NCBI RefSeq assembly: GCF_024227715.1
Contig: NZ_CP100448.1
Location: 2,625,655-2,689,654, forward strand
From: Halomarina litorea
GTDB lineage: Archaea > Halobacteriota > Halobacteria > Halobacteriales > Haloarculaceae
Direction of reading: 5' to 3'
DNA: 64,000 nt
The position numbers and the translations under genes were made by a program. Below the pieces are notes generated by a model that was given only the letters and a program-made list of their open reading frames with translations, made no database searches and had not been told where the DNA came from. This document shows positions 52,253-63,786 of this stretch, one piece after another. The number at the start of each line of letters is the position of its first letter. Positions within the stretch are counted from its first letter, which is position 1.

Positions 52253-53335
52253 ATGGACGCACGACTGTTGCTCCCGCGGCCGGTCCGCCGGTTGCCCGCC
52301 GATCTCGCGGCAGTCGTGCTCGCCACGCTCCTGACGAACCTGTTCGTCCTCGCCCCCCTCCTGCGCGAGACGCCCGTTCGAATCGTGTTCGGGCTCGTCT
52401 TCGTGCTGTTCGTCCCCGGCTACGCCTTCATCGCGGCGCTGTTCCCCGAGGCGGGGAGCGAGCCGGGAGCGGACGGCGACCCGGAGGCGTTCGACGAACC
52501 GCTCGAGGACGAGCGAGGCATCAGCGGCCTCGAACGGGTCGCCCTCTCGCTGGGGACGAGCATCGCCATCGTCCCGCTCATCGGGCTGGTGTTGAACTTC
52601 ACCCCCTTCGGGATTCGACTGGTGCCCATCCTCGCGAGCGTGAGCCTGTTCACGCTCGGCTGCGTTGCCGTGGGCGCGCGTCGGCGCTGGCGGCTGCCCG
52701 CCGACGAACGCCTCGTCGTCCCCTACCGCGAGTGGGCGACGGGCGTGCGGACCGAGCTGTTCGAACCCGACACGCGTGGGGACGCCATCCTGAACGTCGT
52801 GATGGTCATCAGCATCCTGCTGGCCGTCTCGAGCGTCGGGTACGCCGTGATGGTCCCGAAGGAGGGCGAGTCGTTCACCGAACTCTACTTGCTCACGCAA
52901 AACGAGACGGGCGACCTCGTCGCCGACGACTACCCGACGAACTTCACGCGCGGCGAGGGGCAGTCGCTGTACGTCGGCGTCGGGAACCACGAACACGAGC
53001 GGGTCAACTACACGGTGGTGGTCGAACTCCAGCGCGTGGACGTCCAGTACTTCGAGAATGGGACCCGTGTGTCGAACGTCACCAACGCGACGAACGTGAC
53101 GAACGTCTCCGTCGAAGTCCTCGAAGAGGAGGAACTCCAGCGGTTCTCGCCGACGGTGGGCGACAACGAAACCTGGCAGGAGCGTCATACCGTGACGCCG
53201 ACGCTGACGGGCGATCGGTTGCGGCTGGTCTATCTGCTGTACAAGGGAGACGTGCCGGCCGAGCCGACGACTGAGAACGCCTACCGGGAGGTACATCTGT
53301 GGGTGAACGTCAGCGGCGATGAGCGTCGGGAGTGA
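52253..53335 (+). CDS. DUF1616 membrane protein
   Basis: A 360-residue protein. Four helices in the first half (about 17-36, 40-62, 97-120 and 125-145) are followed by another near 180-200 and a large extracellular C-terminal domain. This layout, with the FGLVFVLFVPGYAF segment, is the DUF1616 family. The ectodomain carries several N-x-S/T sites (NETGD, NFTRG, a VTNATNVTNVS run). DUF1616 genes often sit next to S-layer or glycosylation loci in haloarchaea. Function is unknown. Confidence 0.83.
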   Translation: MDARLLLPRPVRRLPADLAAVVLATLLTNLFVLAPLLRETPVRIVFGLVFVLFVPGYAFIAALFPEAGSEPGADGDPEAFDEPLEDERGISGLERVALSLGTSIAIVPLIGLVLNFTPFGIRLVPILASVSLFTLGCVAVGARRRWRLPADERLVVPYREWATGVRTELFEPDTRGDAILNVVMVISILLAVSSVGYAVMVPKEGESFTELYLLTQNETGDLVADDYPTNFTRGEGQSLYVGVGNHEHERVNYTVVVELQRVDVQYFENGTRVSNVTNATNVTNVSVEVLEEEELQRFSPTVGDNETWQERHTVTPTLTGDRLRLVYLLYKGDVPAEPTTENAYREVHLWVNVSGDERRE

Positions 53336-53605
53336 GCGCCCGCAAGCAAGCAATCGGGGTAACTGGCCAAAACGAACACACCGCGAACAACTACTCGAAC
53401 AATCGTGTTTTTACCTGTGATATCCGGGAATGCGGTAAAATCGGTCGGAGATACATTTTATTCAATCTACTCATCTTACGGTTAATACCAAGTATCCGAA
53501 ACTACTATACCATCTTCGCCGTCATGTTGTTCTGAGAACATTGGCAGAAATGGGAACATGTGAGAGACTGTGGACGGATTTGACGCACGAGGGAAGGGAT
53601 TAACG
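53336..53605 (+). promoter_or_regulatory. AT-rich intergenic region at the start of the second glycan locus
   Basis: About 270 bases that are far more AT-rich than anything before them, with runs such as ATACATTTTATTCAATC and TACGGTTAATACC. Possible TATA-like elements are many. No gene is visible. GTG 53606 is preceded by a purine-rich GGAAGGGAT. This stretch marks the left edge of the low-GC segment. Confidence 0.45.
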
Positions 53606-54937
53606 GTGTCACGAGGATCAAGTCAACGAGCGGGAGCGGAGTCCGAGTCACTCACAGCGAGCCAGCCGGCACTCGGTATCGTCGCGACCCGGGACAACGC
53701 CAGCGACGTGGCCGGGGCGATTCTCCGCGCCCACGACGAGGGCTACGAGGTGTTCGTCGCGACGAACGCCGTCGACGACCTCGAGGCGACCCGCTTTGCC
53801 GACCAGCTCGGCGCGACCGTCATCGAGACGAACGAGGTCGGCCGCGACCCCCTCGTCCAGTCGCTCTCGCAGGCCGCCCGCCATCACGGCCATCCGGGAT
53901 TGCTCTATCACGAACACCCGAGCGAGCCCATCGACTTCGAGGCGAGCACCGACGCGATGTACGGCCAGCCGGAGTACGTCTGTGAAACGGAGGTCGCACC
54001 GACCGTTCGGTCGGAGCCGACCGTCCTCGCCGCGATTCCGGCGTACAACGAGGGTGCGGCCATCGCGGACGTGGTCCGTGGGGCGCGGGAGTACGTCGAC
54101 GAGGTGCTCGTCATCGACGACGGGAGTACCGACGCGACTGTCAGTGAGGCCGTGCGGACGGGCGCGACCGTCATCGAACACGAGACGAACAAGGGATACG
54201 GCGGAGCGCTGAAGACCGCCTTCCGGGAGGCCAAGCGGAGCGGTGCCGACCATCTGGTGATTCTCGATGGGGATGGACAACACAACCCGAGCGACATTCC
54301 GGACTTGCTACGAGTGCAGCGGGAAGACGAAATCGAGGTGGTCATCGGAAGTCGGTTCGCTGGAGAGGTGGTATCGACGTTACCGCTGTACCGGCGTTTC
54401 GGCCTCGCAGTGGTGAACCTACTGACGAACCTAAGTCTCGGTGTCGTTCGGTCTGACTCCCGCGTCCGCGATACACAGAGTGGGTTCCGAGCGTACAATC
54501 GGGACGCTATCGAGTCCCTAGCCACCGACCGAACGCTCGGCGACAACATGAGTGCGAGTACGGACATCCTGTACCACGCCCACAGTCGTGATTATCGGAT
54601 TCGGGAGGTCGGAACCGTAATCGATTATGAAGTCAAGAATGGGAGTACGCACAGTCCGCTTTCCCATGGCATCTCACTGGTTGGCAACATTCTCAAAACA
54701 GTAGAACGAAAGCGGCCAGTCTCAGCGCTGGGCGTCCCGGGCTTTGTCAGTTCCATCGTCGGTATTGGATTCGGTTACATGACACTCGCGAACTACATCG
54801 ACTCTGGGGTATTTCCGCTAGGGCTCGCGATGGCGTCCGTGTTCTTCGTCCTCGCAGGGATTTTCTCCTGCTTCACCGCCATCATTCTCCATTCGCTGAA
54901 CTCGCACTACAAGAGCCAACCGTGGTTTGATTCGTGA
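53606..54937 (+). CDS. Family 2 glycosyltransferase, dolichyl-phosphate-sugar synthase-like
   Basis: About 443 residues from GTG 53606; an earlier GTG at 53570 adds 12 residues. An N-terminal regulator-like domain (residues 20-100) with VATRDNASDV precedes a GT-A core with PAYNEGAAIADV, DDGSTDAT, NKGYGGALKTAFREA, DGDGQHNP and GSRFAGEV. Two C-terminal helices anchor it to the membrane. This is the dolichyl-phosphate mannose/glucose synthase (DPM1/AglJ-type) layout, which loads a sugar onto dolichyl phosphate. GC falls sharply inside the gene, near 54,240. Confidence 0.86.
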   Translation: MSRGSSQRAGAESESLTASQPALGIVATRDNASDVAGAILRAHDEGYEVFVATNAVDDLEATRFADQLGATVIETNEVGRDPLVQSLSQAARHHGHPGLLYHEHPSEPIDFEASTDAMYGQPEYVCETEVAPTVRSEPTVLAAIPAYNEGAAIADVVRGAREYVDEVLVIDDGSTDATVSEAVRTGATVIEHETNKGYGGALKTAFREAKRSGADHLVILDGDGQHNPSDIPDLLRVQREDEIEVVIGSRFAGEVVSTLPLYRRFGLAVVNLLTNLSLGVVRSDSRVRDTQSGFRAYNRDAIESLATDRTLGDNMSASTDILYHAHSRDYRIREVGTVIDYEVKNGSTHSPLSHGISLVGNILKTVERKRPVSALGVPGFVSSIVGIGFGYMTLANYIDSGVFPLGLAMASVFFVLAGIFSCFTAIILHSLNSHYKSQPWFDS

Positions 54938-55022: not shown

Positions 55023-56321
55023 ATGAGTTCGATTTGCGTTCATGGCCTGGGCTATATCGGCCTCCCGACCGCTGCGATGTTAGCGAACAACGGTCATTCC
55101 GTCCGGGGGTACGACATCGATGCGGCACGAGTTAAACGCCTCGAGGAAGGGGAGAGTTCGATCGACGAGCCGGGGCTGGACGACTTCGTCCAAACGGCAA
55201 TCGAGTCCGGCGCGTTGACGGTTACCACAGAAATTCGCCCTGCAGAGTACCACGTCATCTGTGTTCCGACACCATTCGATGTCGAACAGAGAGAGGCCGA
55301 CCTAAGTTACGTCAGGGCAGCAAGTCGGACCGTCAGATCGGAGCTTCGAGAAGGGGATACCATAATCCTGGAATCGACAGTTCCCCCGGGAACAACCGAT
55401 ACCGTAATCCGACCGATTGTAGAGGAGTCGGGACTCGTAGCAGGCGACGACTTCGGGCTGAGCTACTCCCCGGAAACGGTGTTACCTGGAAACATCCTAG
55501 AAGAGCTACGCGAGAACGACCGCATCGTCGGCGGTATCAGTGAGGAGTCGACCACTGCTGCTATCGACCTGTACGGATCGTTCGTCCAAGGGGACATCCA
55601 CACGACAGCCGATACGACGACCGCGGAGTTTGTCAAGCTCATCCAGAACACGTTTCGGGATACGAACATCGCACTCGCGAACGAACTGGCGAAAATCGCT
55701 CGTGATCACGATATCGACGCTCGGGAGGCGATTCGTCTCGCAAACGAACACCCACGAGTCGATATCCATCATCCTGGACCGGGCGTTGGCGGTCACTGTC
55801 TCCCCATCGACCCATGGTTCCTCGGACAGAACTCGGACGAGCTCGACCTCGTTTCGACCGCCAGACAGGTTAACGATGGGATGACCGAGTACATCGTGGA
55901 ATTGCTACGGAAAGAACTGGGAGCGCTTGAGGGTCAGCGAATCGCGATTCTCGGGATCGCATACAAGGGGAACGTCGACGACATCCGGAACAGTCCTGGA
56001 CTGGCACTCGCCCGTTCGTTGCAGAGCGCTGGACAAATGACGGCTTCCGTGGTTGCTCCTGATGGTGGTAAGGCTGGTGCCAGCATCGATATTCGGCTCA
56101 ACGATCCCCACGTCAACGACCAGACGCTGAATCTCCGTCCAATCGAGGAAGCCACCGACGCCGCCGACGCCGTCGTTATCGCTACGGACCACACCGAGTA
56201 TACACAAATCGACCCCCGAGAATTACGAGAGCGAATGGACGGCGAGACCGTTCTCGATACGAAGGCACTCGTAGACCCTACTCAGTGGGAAGCGGCAGGG
56301 CTTGACGTCGTTCGTCTCTAA
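55023..56321 (+). CDS. UDP-N-acetyl-D-mannosamine dehydrogenase type nucleotide-sugar dehydrogenase
   Basis: A 432-residue protein. VHGLGYIGLP (6-15) is the NAD site, K205 in AEFVKLIQNTFRD is the catalytic Lys, and C259 in GPGVGGHCLPIDPWF is the catalytic Cys. The run SPETVLPGNILEELRENDRIVGG matches the ManNAc-dehydrogenase (WecC) branch better than Glc dehydrogenases. It should make UDP-ManNAcA. No UDP-GlcNAc 2-epimerase (WecB) is present in the window, so its substrate would have to come from elsewhere. It is distinct from the WbpA-like gene at 30,209. Confidence 0.87.
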   Translation: MSSICVHGLGYIGLPTAAMLANNGHSVRGYDIDAARVKRLEEGESSIDEPGLDDFVQTAIESGALTVTTEIRPAEYHVICVPTPFDVEQREADLSYVRAASRTVRSELREGDTIILESTVPPGTTDTVIRPIVEESGLVAGDDFGLSYSPETVLPGNILEELRENDRIVGGISEESTTAAIDLYGSFVQGDIHTTADTTTAEFVKLIQNTFRDTNIALANELAKIARDHDIDAREAIRLANEHPRVDIHHPGPGVGGHCLPIDPWFLGQNSDELDLVSTARQVNDGMTEYIVELLRKELGALEGQRIAILGIAYKGNVDDIRNSPGLALARSLQSAGQMTASVVAPDGGKAGASIDIRLNDPHVNDQTLNLRPIEEATDAADAVVIATDHTEYTQIDPRELRERMDGETVLDTKALVDPTQWEAAGLDVVRL

Positions 56322-56340
56322 CTCGACACCCAACGACAAA

Positions 56341-57591
56341 ATGGATGATTCATCACCGCGCGTGCTCGTCGTAACGCAGGCGTTCCCGCCCGAAAAAGGT
56401 GGAAACGCCTCACGAATGGGGGACCTCTGCCGGCACATGGCCGACAACGTGGAGTTGACTGTCGTGGCGCCCCCAACCTGCTTTCCTCCGGGTGAGTTCG
56501 AGTGGTCATGGAAACGTGCGACCAAGAAGCGACGCGAGGGTCACGATTTGATTCGGCTGTGGTCGTGGCAGCCACGAACCGTCGATCCATCGTTCGTCGA
56601 GCGCATGTTGTACTACATCATCTTCGCGTTCCACGCGCTCGTCTGGGCGTTTCTGCGACGGGACGAGTTCGACGTCGTTCTTACGTCCTCGCCGCCGATT
56701 TTCACTGGCTTGGTCGCGTTTCCGCTTTCTATTACAGGGTCCGCTAAGTGGGTACTCGATATCCGTGACCTCTGGATAGACGTCTCGAGTGATCTCGGAT
56801 TCATCTCCGGGGATGGGATTGCGACGCGCCTGAGCCGCAGGTATCAGGAACAAGCACTCAAACGAGCCGATCTGGTTACAATTACTACTCCGGGGACGGA
56901 GGCGAGAATGCGGGAACACTACTCGTTCGAGACGGCAGTTCAAGTGATTCCCAACGGTGTCGACACGCAGTACTTCGAACCTCAAGATGAGCCCCAGACT
57001 GCCGACCTGATTTACACGGGAAACATCGGATACGGTCAGGATTTAGAGACGTGTATTCGAGCACTCCCGTTACTCGAGAATAGCGATGTGACGTTCACAC
57101 TCGTCGGGGATGGCGACCTGCGACCAGAATTAACGGCGTTGGCCGAACGACTCGGAGTAACGGACCGAGTCGAGTTCACGGGACTCGTCCCACGCGACGA
57201 AATCCCCCGCCTTCTCAACGGTGCGACAATTGGTGTTGCACCACTCAAAGCTCGGGAGTCGCTGTCGTATGCCGTCCCGACCAAGGTCTACGAATACCTG
57301 GCCTGTAAGCTCCCTGTGCTCGCCCTTGGGAACGGTGAAATCGAACGGGTTGTCGAAGCCTCTGAAGGGGGAGTCATCCCGGACGGGTCACCACAATCGG
57401 TTGCTGATGCTATCGATGAACTACTCGATGACGAGCGGCGCCGACGGAGGATGGCAACGCGAGGGCGGCAGTTCGTCGTCTCCAACTACGACCGACAGGC
57501 CATCGCGGCCGAGCTCTTTGATGCGATCTCGAAGCTCGTCGAGCCTGCGAACTGGCCGGTCTCGGAACGGCGGGCACGGAGTCGCTCATGA
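56341..57591 (+). CDS. Family 4 glycosyltransferase (WbuB-like)
   Basis: A 416-residue GT-B protein from ATG 56341. The N-terminal VLVVTQAFPPEKGGNASRM is followed by a UDP-sugar acceptor domain and, after IYTGNIGYG, the GT4 donor domain with LVGDGDLRPEL and YAVPTKVYEYLACKLPVLALGNGEIE (the E-x7-E motif). It resembles WbuB-like amino-sugar transferases. It overlaps the heparinase-like gene by four bases and starts 19 bases after the dehydrogenase, so the unit is probably one operon. Confidence 0.87.
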   Translation: MDDSSPRVLVVTQAFPPEKGGNASRMGDLCRHMADNVELTVVAPPTCFPPGEFEWSWKRATKKRREGHDLIRLWSWQPRTVDPSFVERMLYYIIFAFHALVWAFLRRDEFDVVLTSSPPIFTGLVAFPLSITGSAKWVLDIRDLWIDVSSDLGFISGDGIATRLSRRYQEQALKRADLVTITTPGTEARMREHYSFETAVQVIPNGVDTQYFEPQDEPQTADLIYTGNIGYGQDLETCIRALPLLENSDVTFTLVGDGDLRPELTALAERLGVTDRVEFTGLVPRDEIPRLLNGATIGVAPLKARESLSYAVPTKVYEYLACKLPVLALGNGEIERVVEASEGGVIPDGSPQSVADAIDELLDDERRRRRMATRGRQFVVSNYDRQAIAAELFDAISKLVEPANWPVSERRARSRS

Positions 57592-59474
57592 AGCGTCTCG
57601 ACGAAGACGTTACACAGCCAGGTGTACTCGACCGCTGGCGCATCGCAGCGATCACCGTGTCGAATATGCAACGCGAGCAGTTGCTCGGCATGCTCGAGCG
57701 AAACGCTCGGCAGGCGATCCTTCCGAGACTGCCGATCGATTTCGACGCTCGCTACGAGGCTCGTATTCCTGATGAGCTATCCATCGATAGCTCGGCACTC
57801 GACCAAAACACCGGTAATCTTCGCAGTTCGCTGAGTCGTGCGACTCGAACGGACTTCCGGGAACGTCTACAGGCGTTTGAGAACCGGAAGCTGGAATTCC
57901 TCAACCACGAGGTCGCACTCGACTCTAATCGAGCTATCGAGTTCGATGACGACCAACTGGCTGACGTCCCACTACTCTGGTGGCTCAAATACCAGTCGCT
58001 CGAGCCAGTCAAGTGGCTCGTTCTTGGCCTCGAGGATCCGGAATCACGCCCTGACCTCGTAAACACAGTGGATGAGTGGGTGAAATCTCTTCTCGACACC
58101 ACAACCATTGGATCGAAGGGGTATCTTCGTCGGGACTGGATTCCCCATGCGGTCTCACTGCGCGTGATACATCTCGCCCGGTACTGTGCGTGGCTGCGTG
58201 AGCACGATGTGACTGTTGACCGGTCGATTCTCCGGTATCTCTACAAGAACGCGCTGTTCCTCGAGAACCACGTCGAATACGACGTAGGTGGGAATCATCT
58301 CATCGAAAACGCGACGGCGCTCTTCGTGGCAGGAACACTGTTCAAAGAATCACCTAGGTGGAGAACCGAAGGGAAGCAGCTGCTGGAAGAACTGGCCTCC
58401 GACCAGTTCCTCAGCGATGGCGGTCACTTCGAACGGAGTCCGATGTATCATGTAATGGTTCTCACGCGGTACCTGACGGCGGCTAATCTTCTCCAACTGG
58501 ATGGCAACTCAGCGTGGAGTCCTATACTCAGTATTGCGAGAGACGCCACACAGTTCGCTCGTTCGCTCACGCCTCCTGACGAGGCGATACCGTTACTGAA
58601 CGATTCGGTATTCGGTGAGGAACTCTCCCTGGCAGAAGTCTCTGATTACGCAGCGGCAGTCGGGCCCCCCGTGTCCGACCTCCAGTCTCGGCTCGACTCC
58701 TCGGGCTACTACTGGCTTGGGTCGGGAGCGAATCGGATGCTGGTCGATGCCGGTCCTGTCGGCCCTGCCCACCTCCCAGGGCATTCGCACAACGCCCTAC
58801 TGAGCATTTTACTGTGGCTCGACGGAAACCGGGTGTTCACTGACACAGGGGTTAGTCAGTATAGCGGTGATTCAGGTCGCCAGTACGTCCGAAGCGTGCA
58901 GGCACACAATACGGTCCAGGTGGACGATTCGGAGCCGAATGATATCGCTGGTCAATACCTGATGGGGCGGCGGGCGAACCCGACTGTGACGTACTCCACG
59001 GACGGGACACTAGAACGGCTGGTCGGGACGTATTCGAAAGTGGGTCGAGGAGACTCCAAGTATAGACATACCCGGAACGTCTGCTCAAGTGGGGACTGGT
59101 GGCTAGTTCTCGACAGTGTCGATATGGGTGGGCGTAGGCCCGTACAAAGCCGGCTGCACGCACACCCAGACATCGAACTCGATCCGACGACAACGCCTGG
59201 AGAGTACCAGATACTAGAGTCGGAAGGATCGACGATCGGTTCCTTCTACGCGCTCAATTGTGACGCCGTTGAGCGGGCCATTAGTCCGTATTTCCCTGCG
59301 TTTGGCGTCGAGAGAGAGCGGGAAGCGCTCGAGCTGACGTATGATTCGTCACGGGCGACGTCCGGGTTCCTCGTTTCCCGCTGGCCTTACGACACGGTAG
59401 AGTACGACAGCAAGACGGATACACTGAAGATTGAAGACGAATTGTTCGCCCCGTTCGGGGATGATGAGAGATAG
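57588..59474 (+). CDS. Heparinase II/III-like protein
   Basis: A 628-residue protein. The N-terminal alpha/alpha toroid region (about 100-370, with DGGHFERSPMYH) is followed by the beta-sandwich with PGHSHNALLSILLWLDG (about 396-412) and the AHNTV motif near H440. These give the Tyr/His residues of the polysaccharide lyase fold. Family members cleave uronic-acid polysaccharides by beta-elimination, or sit in EPS clusters with no known activity. There is no signal peptide, so a cytosolic role on precursors is likely. It is coupled with the GT4 gene (ATGA). Confidence 0.83.
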   Translation: MKRLDEDVTQPGVLDRWRIAAITVSNMQREQLLGMLERNARQAILPRLPIDFDARYEARIPDELSIDSSALDQNTGNLRSSLSRATRTDFRERLQAFENRKLEFLNHEVALDSNRAIEFDDDQLADVPLLWWLKYQSLEPVKWLVLGLEDPESRPDLVNTVDEWVKSLLDTTTIGSKGYLRRDWIPHAVSLRVIHLARYCAWLREHDVTVDRSILRYLYKNALFLENHVEYDVGGNHLIENATALFVAGTLFKESPRWRTEGKQLLEELASDQFLSDGGHFERSPMYHVMVLTRYLTAANLLQLDGNSAWSPILSIARDATQFARSLTPPDEAIPLLNDSVFGEELSLAEVSDYAAAVGPPVSDLQSRLDSSGYYWLGSGANRMLVDAGPVGPAHLPGHSHNALLSILLWLDGNRVFTDTGVSQYSGDSGRQYVRSVQAHNTVQVDDSEPNDIAGQYLMGRRANPTVTYSTDGTLERLVGTYSKVGRGDSKYRHTRNVCSSGDWWLVLDSVDMGGRRPVQSRLHAHPDIELDPTTTPGEYQILESEGSTIGSFYALNCDAVERAISPYFPAFGVEREREALELTYDSSRATSGFLVSRWPYDTVEYDSKTDTLKIEDELFAPFGDDER

Positions 59475-59591: not shown

Positions 59592-61751
59592 ATGAAACAG
59601 GTAATTCAGGATTTCAAGACAGGTGACGTTCGACTCTCGGATGTCCCCCGACCGCAGGTGCTCGACGACGGCGTTCTCGTCAAGAACCACTACTCCTGTG
59701 TAAGCGCCGGCACCGAGAAGACAATGATCGAACTGGGCAAGAAGAACGTCGTCAACAAGGCGAGGGAACGGCCGGACCTCGCAAAGAAGGTCTTCGAGAT
59801 GGCGCGAAATGATGGGCTCGTTTCGACGTACCAGAACGTGATGGCACGTCTCGAGGAAGCAACGCCTCTCGGGTATAGTTGCTGTGGCGAGGTCATCGAA
59901 GTCGGTGAGAACGTCACCGAGTTCTCGGAGGGCGACATGGTCGCCTGTGCTGGTGCTGGCTACGCGAACCATGCGGAAGTCGTCTCAGTCCCGCGAAACC
60001 TCTGTGCGCCCGTCCCGGACGGCGTCGAACCGTCGAATGCCGCCTTTGTCACGATTGGCGCGATTGCGATGCAGGGGATTCGACGGGCGGATCTCTCTCC
60101 CGGCGAGCGGGTGGCCGTATTGGGGCTTGGACTCGTCGGCCAGACGGTCGTTCAGATTTTGAACGCTTACGGGTTCCCAGTCCTCGCGGTGGACATCGCT
60201 CCTGGCCAAGTCGAAACGGCACTCGACCTCGGTGCTGACAAAGGTGCGGTAATCGGGGACGACGATATCGAACAAGTTGCGGAGCACTTCTCAGAGGGGA
60301 ATGGTGTCGATGCGACCGTCATCGCTGCCTCCACGAAGAGCAACCAGCCAGTCGAACAGGCGGGCGAGATCACCCGCGAGCAGGGTCGGGTCTCCGTCAT
60401 CGGGCAAGTCGGTATGGACGTCCCTCGCGAACTCTACTACGAGAAGGAACTCGACTTCCTGATTTCCCGCTCCTACGGCCCAGGACGGTACGACAAGCAG
60501 TACGAGGAGAAGGGCCTCGACTATCCGATTGAGCACGTCCGCTGGACAGAAAATCGGAACATGCGGGAGTGTCTTCGACTTCTCGCCACCGGCCGCCTCG
60601 ACTTCGAACCGATGCAGACTCACGAGTTCGAAATCGATTCATCGACAGACGCCTACGACCTGATTCTCGAGAACCCGAACGACGAGGCGTTTACGGGTGT
60701 TCTTCTGAAGTACGCACCCGACCGTGAGCACTCGACAACGTTAGAACGCACACCGACTGCGACGCCTACGACGGGCACTCAGCAGAAATCCGCGCCGCTT
60801 GCAGTCGGCATGATCGGGGTCGGGAACTTCGCTAAGGGAACGCTCCTCCCGATCATCGAGGACATCAAGGCCCTCGACCTCCGGGCTGTCGCTTCGGCGA
60901 CTGGGGTGTCGGCGTCTCAAGTCGCTGCACAGCACGATTGCTCGTACTCGACGACTGATTACCGGCAGATCGTCGAGGACAATGCTATCGATATCGTCGT
61001 CATTGCGACGCGTCACAACCTCCACGCTGAAATCGCGACTGCTGCACTCGAGCAGGGAAAAGACGTCCACGTCGAGAAGCCACTAGCGATTTCCGAAGAG
61101 GGACTCCAACAGGTCGCGACGGCGGCCCGAGATGCACCGGGTCGGTTGATGGTCGGCTTCAATCGACGATTTGCGGAGCCAACTCGGCAACTCAAAAAGT
61201 CTGTTTGCGATGGGCCAGGACCAGTAATGCTCAACTACCGGGTCAATGCTGATTCGATTCCAGAAGACCACTGGATACATGACCCCGAAATCGGTGGCGG
61301 GCGCGTCGTTGGTGAAGTATGTCACTTCGTGGATTTCGCGCGCTTTGTTGCTGACTCGCCGATCGAGCAGGTGTACGCAACCGGAATCACCAACGAAAGC
61401 AAGTCAGTCCCGCCTGAGAACGTGGACGTAACATTAGAGTTCGAAAATGGAAGTACAGCATCCGTACTCTACACGACACTTGGTGATAGTTCGCTCCCGA
61501 AAGAACACGTCGAGGCGTTCGGAAACGGCCGTGCCAGCCGAATTGACAACTTCAAGGGCGGACGAATGAGTCTTGGCCAGGACAAAGGTCACGAACGCGA
61601 GTTCAAATCCCTCGTGAAGTCGATTCTGGCTGGAGAACGATCGGCAATAGCGCTTGAGGCGGCGATCGAAGTTACTGAGTCGACCTTCGCAATCCATGAA
61701 TCGCTTCGGCGCGGTGAACCGATCCCGCTTACCATCGACACGTACCTTTGA
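59592..61751 (+). CDS. Two-domain oxidoreductase: zinc-type dehydrogenase plus Gfo/Idh/MocA domain
   Basis: A 719-residue fusion. Residues 1-370 are an MDR-type dehydrogenase, with CGEVIEVGENVTEFSEGDMV and the cofactor-binding AVLGLGLVGQTVVQ. A Thr/Ser-rich linker (about 380-400) leads to a Gfo/Idh/MocA domain (about 403-719) with MIGVGNFAKGTLLP and VEKPLAIS near 494. Such fusions accompany heparinase II/III-like genes in bacterial EPS loci and probably act on an oxidised sugar intermediate. The reaction is not established. It follows the heparinase-like gene by about 117 bases. Confidence 0.86.
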   Translation: MKQVIQDFKTGDVRLSDVPRPQVLDDGVLVKNHYSCVSAGTEKTMIELGKKNVVNKARERPDLAKKVFEMARNDGLVSTYQNVMARLEEATPLGYSCCGEVIEVGENVTEFSEGDMVACAGAGYANHAEVVSVPRNLCAPVPDGVEPSNAAFVTIGAIAMQGIRRADLSPGERVAVLGLGLVGQTVVQILNAYGFPVLAVDIAPGQVETALDLGADKGAVIGDDDIEQVAEHFSEGNGVDATVIAASTKSNQPVEQAGEITREQGRVSVIGQVGMDVPRELYYEKELDFLISRSYGPGRYDKQYEEKGLDYPIEHVRWTENRNMRECLRLLATGRLDFEPMQTHEFEIDSSTDAYDLILENPNDEAFTGVLLKYAPDREHSTTLERTPTATPTTGTQQKSAPLAVGMIGVGNFAKGTLLPIIEDIKALDLRAVASATGVSASQVAAQHDCSYSTTDYRQIVEDNAIDIVVIATRHNLHAEIATAALEQGKDVHVEKPLAISEEGLQQVATAARDAPGRLMVGFNRRFAEPTRQLKKSVCDGPGPVMLNYRVNADSIPEDHWIHDPEIGGGRVVGEVCHFVDFARFVADSPIEQVYATGITNESKSVPPENVDVTLEFENGSTASVLYTTLGDSSLPKEHVEAFGNGRASRIDNFKGGRMSLGQDKGHEREFKSLVKSILAGERSAIALEAAIEVTESTFAIHESLRRGEPIPLTIDTYL

Positions 61752-61902
61752 AATAATAGGTCTCGACTCAGTTGCGTCCAGTAGTAAGGCGTGATGACTA
61801 CGTTGCAGGCTTGACCGTGATATATTCGTTTACTGGTTTTGTTATTTGCCCAAACACAGCTTACGAATCGTTTTTGTCAGTTGGGGGTCAGCCTATGCGT
61901 AT

Positions 61903-63786
61903 ATGTGTGGCATCTTCGGATATTTTGGTCCGGCATCACACCGGACTGGCCAGGATTCCGGCGAGCTCTCCCATCGAGGCCCGGATGCAAGCGGAGAGTT
62001 CGAGCGAACGATTGGCGATAGGACACTGTGGATAACTCACGACCGACTCAGTATTATCGACCTCTCGGATCGCGGTCGACAGCCGATGACTCTGGCTGAC
62101 GACGATATCGTTCTCTCGTACAACGGGGAGATCTACAACTACGAGCAACTACGCGCTGATCTGAAAGAGACCGGGTACGAGTTCACTTCAGATACCGACA
62201 CGGAAGTCATACTCAACGGATACTACGAATGGGGATTGGACACACTGCTGGAGCGCGTTCGTGGTATCTTCGCGTTCGTTATCGCTGACCACCAAACAGA
62301 GGACCTCCATGTAGTACGGGATTGCTTCGGCGTCAAGCCAGTCTATTATTTCGATGGGGAATTTTTCGCCTGTGCGTCCGAGATCAAGGCGATCCTCCAA
62401 CGGACGAGTGTCGACGCAGTGCTCAATAAGTCTGTCTTAGGGGAATATTTGGCAAACCTGTGGGTACACGAACCGGATACGCTGTTCAAAGACATCTACA
62501 AGTTAGAGAGTGGCCACTACTTGACCCACGACCTCACGACAGGGGATACGGAAACGACCGAATACTGGAACATTCTCGATGCCACGCCAGACATAGCGAC
62601 GACCGACTTAGATGAGCTCATCGAACAGGCCATGGAACGGAACATGGTCAGTGACGTCCCCGTCGGCGTCTACCTAAGCGGTGGCATCGATTCGTCGATT
62701 ATCACGTATCATGCTGCCCAGTCCGCTGACGATTCTCTACTAGCGCTGAACCTTCGAAATGAGACGGACAAGGAGTTCGATGAGTTCGCCAATCTTCAGC
62801 GACTCGGCGACCGGCTGAATATTGATATCGAATCGTTCGACCCGACCGAGTCGATGCTCGACATCTACGAGGAGATGATCTACTATCTCGACGAGCCGAT
62901 TGCCGACCCTGCGATCATCCCAGCCTATCTGCTCGCTCGAGAGGCGAACGAGCGTGGCATCAAGGTGATGCTCTCGGGAATGGGTGCCGACGAACTCTGG
63001 GCAGGATACACGCGGTACAAAATCATTCAACACCAGTCGCTTGGTCGACTCGGAGCTCCGCTGTTCAATGGGGCGTACAAAGCATGGCCGAGCCGCCAAT
63101 CGGACTTCCGACAGAAGCTCCGCCGCGTCGGGACCTACCTATCGAACCCAGGGCCGAACAGCTACTTCTCGCTGATGTATTACTTCGACTCGGAGACGGT
63201 CAGTCGGCTCCTCAAGAGTGATTCATGGCGAGAAGATTATGAGGCGAAAATTGAGGCGATGCTTCCGACAGGAAGTCAGCTTGACCGAGTTCAGCAGTTC
63301 CAATACCTGGACCTCAAGGGTTTCTTAGGATCACATAATCTTATTTATGCCGATAAAGCAAGTATGGCAAACGGTGTCGAAGTTCGTGTTCCGTATCTTG
63401 ACCGAGATTTAGCCGAGTTCGCGTTTCATCTGCCGACCGATGAGAAGACTCGTGATGGCCTCAAGACGCCGCTCAAAGAGCACCTGCGCTCGATACTGGA
63501 CGGAGAATTCGTCAAACATGATAAGCAGGGATTTGCCTTTCCCATTGAGGATTATCTGAGTTCAAGTCGGATGCACGACCAACTTGAAACGATGGTTTTG
63601 GATGACCGAATGAGCGCGTGTTTCGATATTGATGTCATTAAGGAGCAACTTGAAGCCCACTTCGCTGGCGAAGAGAACTATTCGATGCGAATCTGGGTGT
63701 TATACACATTCTGGCTATGGTTAGAGGAATTCAATGTGAGTATCCCTTCTAAATCAGAAAGTAAGGCCATCTCTCAAACATCTTAA
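61903..63786 (+). CDS. asnB: Asparagine synthase (glutamine-hydrolysing), AsnB-type
   Basis: A 627-residue protein. It opens MCGIFGYFG with Cys2 as nucleophile, then SHRGPDASG and the HDRLSIIDLS glutaminase core. The synthase half carries the PP-loop SGGIDSS at 259-265. It makes asparagine, or in glycan loci it can amidate a uronic acid or make an acetamidino group. I chose ATG 61903 because Cys2 must follow Met. Codon use is much more AT-rich than in the first half of the window. It contrasts with the Cys-less relative at 21,809. Confidence 0.9.
   Translation: MCGIFGYFGPASHRTGQDSGELSHRGPDASGEFERTIGDRTLWITHDRLSIIDLSDRGRQPMTLADDDIVLSYNGEIYNYEQLRADLKETGYEFTSDTDTEVILNGYYEWGLDTLLERVRGIFAFVIADHQTEDLHVVRDCFGVKPVYYFDGEFFACASEIKAILQRTSVDAVLNKSVLGEYLANLWVHEPDTLFKDIYKLESGHYLTHDLTTGDTETTEYWNILDATPDIATTDLDELIEQAMERNMVSDVPVGVYLSGGIDSSIITYHAAQSADDSLLALNLRNETDKEFDEFANLQRLGDRLNIDIESFDPTESMLDIYEEMIYYLDEPIADPAIIPAYLLAREANERGIKVMLSGMGADELWAGYTRYKIIQHQSLGRLGAPLFNGAYKAWPSRQSDFRQKLRRVGTYLSNPGPNSYFSLMYYFDSETVSRLLKSDSWREDYEAKIEAMLPTGSQLDRVQQFQYLDLKGFLGSHNLIYADKASMANGVEVRVPYLDRDLAEFAFHLPTDEKTRDGLKTPLKEHLRSILDGEFVKHDKQGFAFPIEDYLSSSRMHDQLETMVLDDRMSACFDIDVIKEQLEAHFAGEENYSMRIWVLYTFWLWLEEFNVSIPSKSESKAISQTS

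Follow-up and report, generated by a model that had tools for sequence, protein, structure and literature searches.

The window analysed in the current study, a stretch of 64,000 nucleotides of Halomarina litorea (contig NZ_CP100448.1), contains a conserved GC-rich chromosomal block whose last gene encodes a DUF1616 protein. This gene is followed by an AT-rich intergenic gap, a glycosyltransferase gene (GT2) and five further genes (table 1). The first-pass annotation had described a composition break within GT2 that leads into a cassette of surface-glycan genes, and the Pfam content of the downstream genes bore out the cassette.

Table 1. Features of the locus; positions are counted from the first base of the window.
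Feature	Position	Strand	Properties
DUF1616 gene	52253..53335	+	Pfam PF07760, E 2e-122; GC3 0.90
AT-rich intergenic gap	53336..53569	.	234 bases, 45% GC, island-like; left end of low-GC island
GT2 gene, probable mosaic	53570..54937	+	455 aa, GTG start; Pfam PF00535
First ~22-36 codons of GT2	53570..53677	+	GC3 0.36 over first 22; island-like codon usage
GC-rich patch in GT2	53636..54241	+	chromosome-like codon usage, GC3 0.88-0.89
Putative recombination junction	54194..54266	+	change-point interval; conserved stretch just 5' of DGDGQH motif
3' half of GT2	54242..54937	+	island-like codon usage, GC3 0.66
Nucleotide-sugar dehydrogenase (UDP-Glc/UDP-ManNAc dehydrogenase type)	55023..56321	+	Pfam; TIGR03026 above cut-off; GC3 0.64
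GT4 glycosyltransferase	56302..57591	+	Pfam
Heparinase II/III-like protein	57588..59474	+	Pfam
Zinc-binding dehydrogenase fused to Gfo/Idh/MocA oxidoreductase	59592..61751	+	Pfam
Asparagine-synthase-like amidotransferase (AsnB)	61846..63786	+	Pfam/TIGR01536; internal GC3 step near 63214

Low GC reaches to about 25-28 kb past the window, so that the island measures ~36-38 kb. In 1-kb steps its GC content falls from 0.57 to 0.40 and then rises again to 0.58, so that the island is composite. In the continuation of the window (loci L061, 1-20000, and L062, 1-8000, which correspond by extension to 64-92 kb of the window) the GC content was 38-47% at 64-73 kb and 55-61% thereafter. The genes found there encode a flippase, GT4 glycosyltransferases and an FkbM methyltransferase, followed by a Cdc6/Orc1 protein, in which no AAA core was recognised, and the products of three TnpB/IS605 genes. 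The region is accordingly a glycan gene cluster of atypical composition that lies beside a conserved flank and carries TnpB/IS605 and Cdc6/Orc1 genes (L061/L062). Searches for tRNA genes at the island edges found none. An orthologue of the next gene in genome G034 was searched for as a right-flank marker of an empty site, but the matches were weak, came from paralogues and lay at a great distance from the island.

The frame of GT2 is intact over its whole length, in agreement with the first-pass annotation, which had placed its start at the second in-frame GTG (53606), an alternative start. The gene product consists of a probably degenerate GT-A copy, a catalytic GT-A domain and two C-terminal transmembrane helices. 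In the AlphaFold model (pLDDT 82.5, pTM 0.73), an alpha/beta domain at the N-terminus is followed by the GT-A domain and by a pair of long helices at the C-terminus; the model was matched by Foldseek to ArnC, GtrB and dolichyl-phosphate mannose synthase (DPMS). The nearest curated families (NCBIfam) are the polyprenyl-phosphate sugar synthases PpgS and AglJ, but all scores were far below cut-off (113.9 bits for GT2 versus 325 for AglJ, TIGR04182, and 370 for PpgS, NF058614), i.e. the family threshold was not reached. Similarity in fold and motifs suggests that GT2 is probably of the polyprenyl/dolichyl-phosphate sugar synthase type. AglJ, PpgS, ArnC, GtrB and DPMS, which were the best structural and profile matches, share with it the GT-A fold and C-terminal membrane helices. 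Unlike these enzymes, GT2 carries the additional N-terminal copy, and in comparison with the dolichyl- and undecaprenyl-phosphate sugar synthases every one of its NCBIfam scores falls far short of the family cut-offs.

The N-terminal domain (residues 31-146, window positions 53660-54010) is common to many haloarchaeal homologues, and is not recognised by Pfam. In hhalign it matched the initial part of the GT-A domain (probability 92.8%, E 4e-7), and it is devoid of a DxD motif. It therefore has the appearance of a duplicated and degenerate first half of a GT-A fold.

Composition step within the GT2 gene

The six G/C counts per 60-base line listed in the first-pass annotation (43, 40, 35, 31, 23 and 39) were all exact on recount, and the break that it had placed near 54240 was recovered with a best change-point at 54242. 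Third codon positions (GC3) and synonymous codon choice were used for this analysis, because the amino-acid content of a protein affects raw GC. In a likelihood analysis of codons 41-455, the single best GC3 step fell at 54242 (interval 54194-54266), with a GC3 of 0.89 in codons 41-224 versus 0.66 in codons 225-455. The log-likelihood gain was 16.4 (permutation p = 0.002, the smallest p obtainable), and a step described the data better than a smooth gradient (-211.6 vs -216.9). Other gene-internal steps with a gain above 10 in the window were found at three over-extended starts and in AsnB, and one further step of this size lies close to the end of a short ORF whose frame is uncertain.

Codon usage was scored conditioned on the amino acid, with a training set taken from the genes of the window only (36 ORFs of the GC-rich part and five island genes); it is slightly noisy, as some of the 36 chromosomal ORFs have over-long predicted starts. 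Codons 41-224 of GT2 scored +38.4 nats and are chromosome-like (chromosomal segments, mean 46.2; island segments, maximum -18.7). Codons 225-455 scored -80.8 nats and are island-like (island segments, mean -78.3, maximum -33.9), and the lowest chromosomal segment of the same size scored +4.6 nats. The two parts of GT2 match two distinct codon-usage classes, and neither part falls within the range of the class that the other part matches. The low-GC transmembrane C-terminus was considered as a cause of the step and rejected, since the step persists in GC3 and in amino-acid-conditioned codon usage, and since it is missing from homologues that share this C-terminus.

A fit with two change-points gave a further edge upstream of the step: it divided the gene at 53636 and 54242 into parts with GC3 of 0.36, 0.88 and 0.66, and the left edge at ~53636 was significant (p = 0.003). 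Codons 1-40 scored -18 nats. The best chromosome-like segment by codon usage spans 53678-54250, which places the left edge of the patch at 53636 (GC3) or 53678 (codon usage) and the right edge at 54242-54250. The left edge is the weaker of the two, because in GC-rich homologues, too, GC tends to be lower towards the start, and because the first ~12 codons of GT2 may be untranslated.

AsnB, too, has an internal GC3 step, with a gain of 10.6 at codon 457 (0.68 before, 0.48 after), and this step is missing in the only two close family homologues of this gene (0.75/0.76 and 0.79/0.76). AsnB is a possible second mosaic gene of the island.

Homologues of GT2 and the conserved flank

Among 36 homologues of GT2 the difference in GC3 between the 5' and 3' parts had a mean of -0.029 (sd 0.045, maximum +0.046), compared with +0.234 in GT2 itself (z = 5.9). 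As none of the 36 shows it (0/36), the composition step is not a property of the GT2 family, and a family-wide composition gradient was rejected. As far as composition is concerned, a gradient shared by orthologues, which the first-pass annotation had named as the observation that would speak against its reading, was absent from these 36 homologues. Homologues with a GC3 of ~0.9 exist in the family and in the order, indicating that suitable donors exist.

In the genomes searched, the closest homologue of the whole gene was ~59% identical, and the best identities of the parts were about 54% (5') and 69% (3'). The best match of the 5' part came from genome G034, and those of the 3' part from G345 and then G034. 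No parental sequence of GT2 was present in the genomes searched or in plasmids, an absence from these collections that is compatible with the existence of a parent. All plasmid matches were below 60%, and the other GT2 genes within the same genome are only distantly related. Trees of the gene halves gave no resolved placement with a first set of 35 rows. With 37 rows the 5' half was placed near G034, G021, G345 and G249 and the 3' half near G143 and G072, with weak support. AU tests on these placements yielded p values of 0.15-0.59, none of them significant. Incongruence between the trees of the two halves was dropped as proof of a different parentage of the halves on account of the weak support and of AU p values that were all at least 0.15.

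The DUF1616 protein has relatives with 73-77% identity in the congeners G007, G006 and G002. The block that ends in DUF1616 is common to G007 and G034, and G044 (another genus) has the block without DUF1616. In G006, G002 and G034 the DUF1616 orthologue is followed by unrelated genes and not by GT2; the site of the island carries other genes in these close relatives, in which the island is absent or replaced. In the congener G007, a GT2 homologue lies ~35 kb from DUF1616 in opposite orientation. Of 392 genomes of the order, 50 gave strong matches to the 5' part of GT2 and 89 to the 3' half. It is the block with DUF1616 at its end, and not GT2, that forms the conserved flank. The first-pass annotation had taken GT2 as a conserved anchor, but the patchy distribution of GT2 and its absence after DUF1616 in G006, G002 and G034 do not agree with that role. 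In G044 the block leads into a run of GT2, sugar dehydrogenase, GT4 and heparinase-like genes, which shows that similar cassettes do settle at this flank.

On contig 13 of G007 (L065, 48000-60000), DUF1616 and its conserved neighbours had a GC3 of 0.56-0.63, compared with ~0.90 in the genome of the window. The whole DUF1616 block of G007 may lie on a low-GC replicon or region.

The GC content of 22 host intergenic gaps ranged from 59 to 83%, and that of island gaps from 43 to 47%. At 45%, the gap upstream of GT2 belongs with the latter. The low-GC island starts directly after DUF1616 (53335), not inside GT2, and an island boundary at 54240 was rejected since both the gap (53336-53569) and the start of GT2 are already island-like. 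Part of the earlier proposal survives these results: there is a junction near 54240 that the homologues lack, and recombination is its simplest cause. Native chromosome up to 54240, with the exchange beginning at that point, is not in agreement with the low-GC gap upstream and with the second GC3 edge at ~53636.

Origin of the GC-rich patch

We prefer to regard 54240 as the right edge of an internal GC-rich patch of ~0.6 kb (53.64/53.68-54.24 kb), and not as the left boundary of the island, because the gap and the gene start are island-like and the separate left edge is significant. The internal patch appears about twice as probable as a single boundary. The best explanation for it, which we judge slightly likelier to be right than wrong, is a short homologous-recombination tract between GT2 homologues within a low-GC island gene. 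According to this model, GT2 would belong to the low-GC surface-glycan island that begins right after DUF1616, and ~0.6 kb within its 5' half, at roughly 53.64-54.24 kb, would derive from a GC-rich homologue of GT2, either as a replacement or as a retained piece. The proposed route is homologous recombination, either by double crossover or as a gene-conversion tract. The right junction would fall into a conserved segment immediately ahead of the DGDGQH motif, which is why the reading frame could survive, and the product would probably be a still-working membrane-anchored polyprenyl-phosphate sugar synthase that is chimeric within its GT-A fold.

GT2 combines a sharp internal junction between two sequence types with the absence of this junction from the 36 homologues. 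The stretch at the junction is more conserved than 92% of 24-residue windows (92nd percentile), and homologous pairing would be easiest there. A step that is sharp, specific to the lineage and located in so conserved a stretch is most simply explained by recombination, which we infer, together with the direction of the exchange and the function of the enzyme, from these data. Against the tract speak the failure to find a donor or close relative (~59% at best), the AU tests (p of at least 0.15) and the weaker left edge.

The most serious competitor, which we nevertheless consider unlikely, is a single crossover near 54242, by which everything upstream, including an AT-rich promoter, would be resident chromosome and everything downstream an imported cassette, with GT2 as the anchor. 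This position is the strongest edge, clusters headed by GT2 recur in other genera (G071, G008 and G044), beside DUF1616-family genes or on the same backbone, and lower GC close to the gene start is also seen in GC-rich homologues. However, the upstream gap falls below all 22 host gaps, and the GC content upstream (44%) is lower than in any homologue with a 5' GC3 of at least 0.80 (0.51-0.70, none below 51%). The separate significant left edge and the lack of GT2 after DUF1616 in the congeners G006 and G002 and in genome G034 also argue against a single crossover.

Uneven codon choice in a gene of single origin, caused by codon-use selection or by uneven amelioration, would need no recombination at all. 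Codon usage does vary along genes, and both halves of GT2 resemble the same broad subfamily, but the step occurs in no homologue, is sharp instead of gradual and separates parts that fit two distinct codon-usage classes, which makes this explanation quite improbable.

Still lower in probability is the successive exchange of two glycan cassettes at the site, with the GC-rich 5' part as a remnant of the older resident and the 3' part belonging to the newer cassette. The composite nature of the island, the second internal step in AsnB (~63214, missing from its two homologues) and the glycan genes of G044 on the same chromosomal block are consistent with such a history, yet cassette exchange alone does not account for the fact that the sequence upstream of the patch is island-like in composition.

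An assembly or consensus artefact, i.e. a chimera of two genomes, is very improbable, as GT2 lies with its frame intact inside a 3.1-Mb contig and is single-copy, with no near-identical second copy to misjoin, although the assembly has a completeness of 98.4% and a contamination of 3.06%.

Relation to known haloarchaeal systems

Recombination within genes has been reported for haloarchaeal aglJ, aglD and aglB, and alternative glycosylation clusters of Haloferax are of low GC and carry orc1 (PMC5867893). The island described here resembles these clusters as a low-GC variable glycan cluster with an Orc1/Cdc6 gene in a GC-rich haloarchaeon, but it differs in gene content and genus (PMC5867893). 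The evidence for intragenic exchange in Haloferax came from close strains and RDP (PMC5867893), whereas in the current study it is compositional. In the cell-wall island GI1 of Haloquadratum walsbyi, recombination includes an event of ~250 bp within a gene (PMC4535781). GI1 likewise concerns surface structures, and its diversity stems from homologous recombination and from mobile elements. In that case the versions that recombined had themselves been sampled (PMC4535781), whereas no parental version of GT2 was present in the genomes and plasmids searched. GT2 is most likely a further example of the documented intragenic recombination in haloarchaeal glycosylation genes.

A wider reading is that the island was built up as its genes recombined internally time and again (GT2 at 54.24 kb and AsnB at ~63.21 kb), and that haloarchaeal glycan islands diversify, besides gene gain and loss, through chimeric enzymes whose parts are joined at conserved catalytic motifs. 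We regard this as doubtful, a little more so than the single crossover.

If the proposed tract is right, it would be a recombination tract in a surface-glycan enzyme that was recognised by composition alone, and the left edge of the glycan island would be placed at the conserved DUF1616 flank. Such a finding would support, and not change, the known view that homologous recombination reshuffles the cell-surface genes of haloarchaea.
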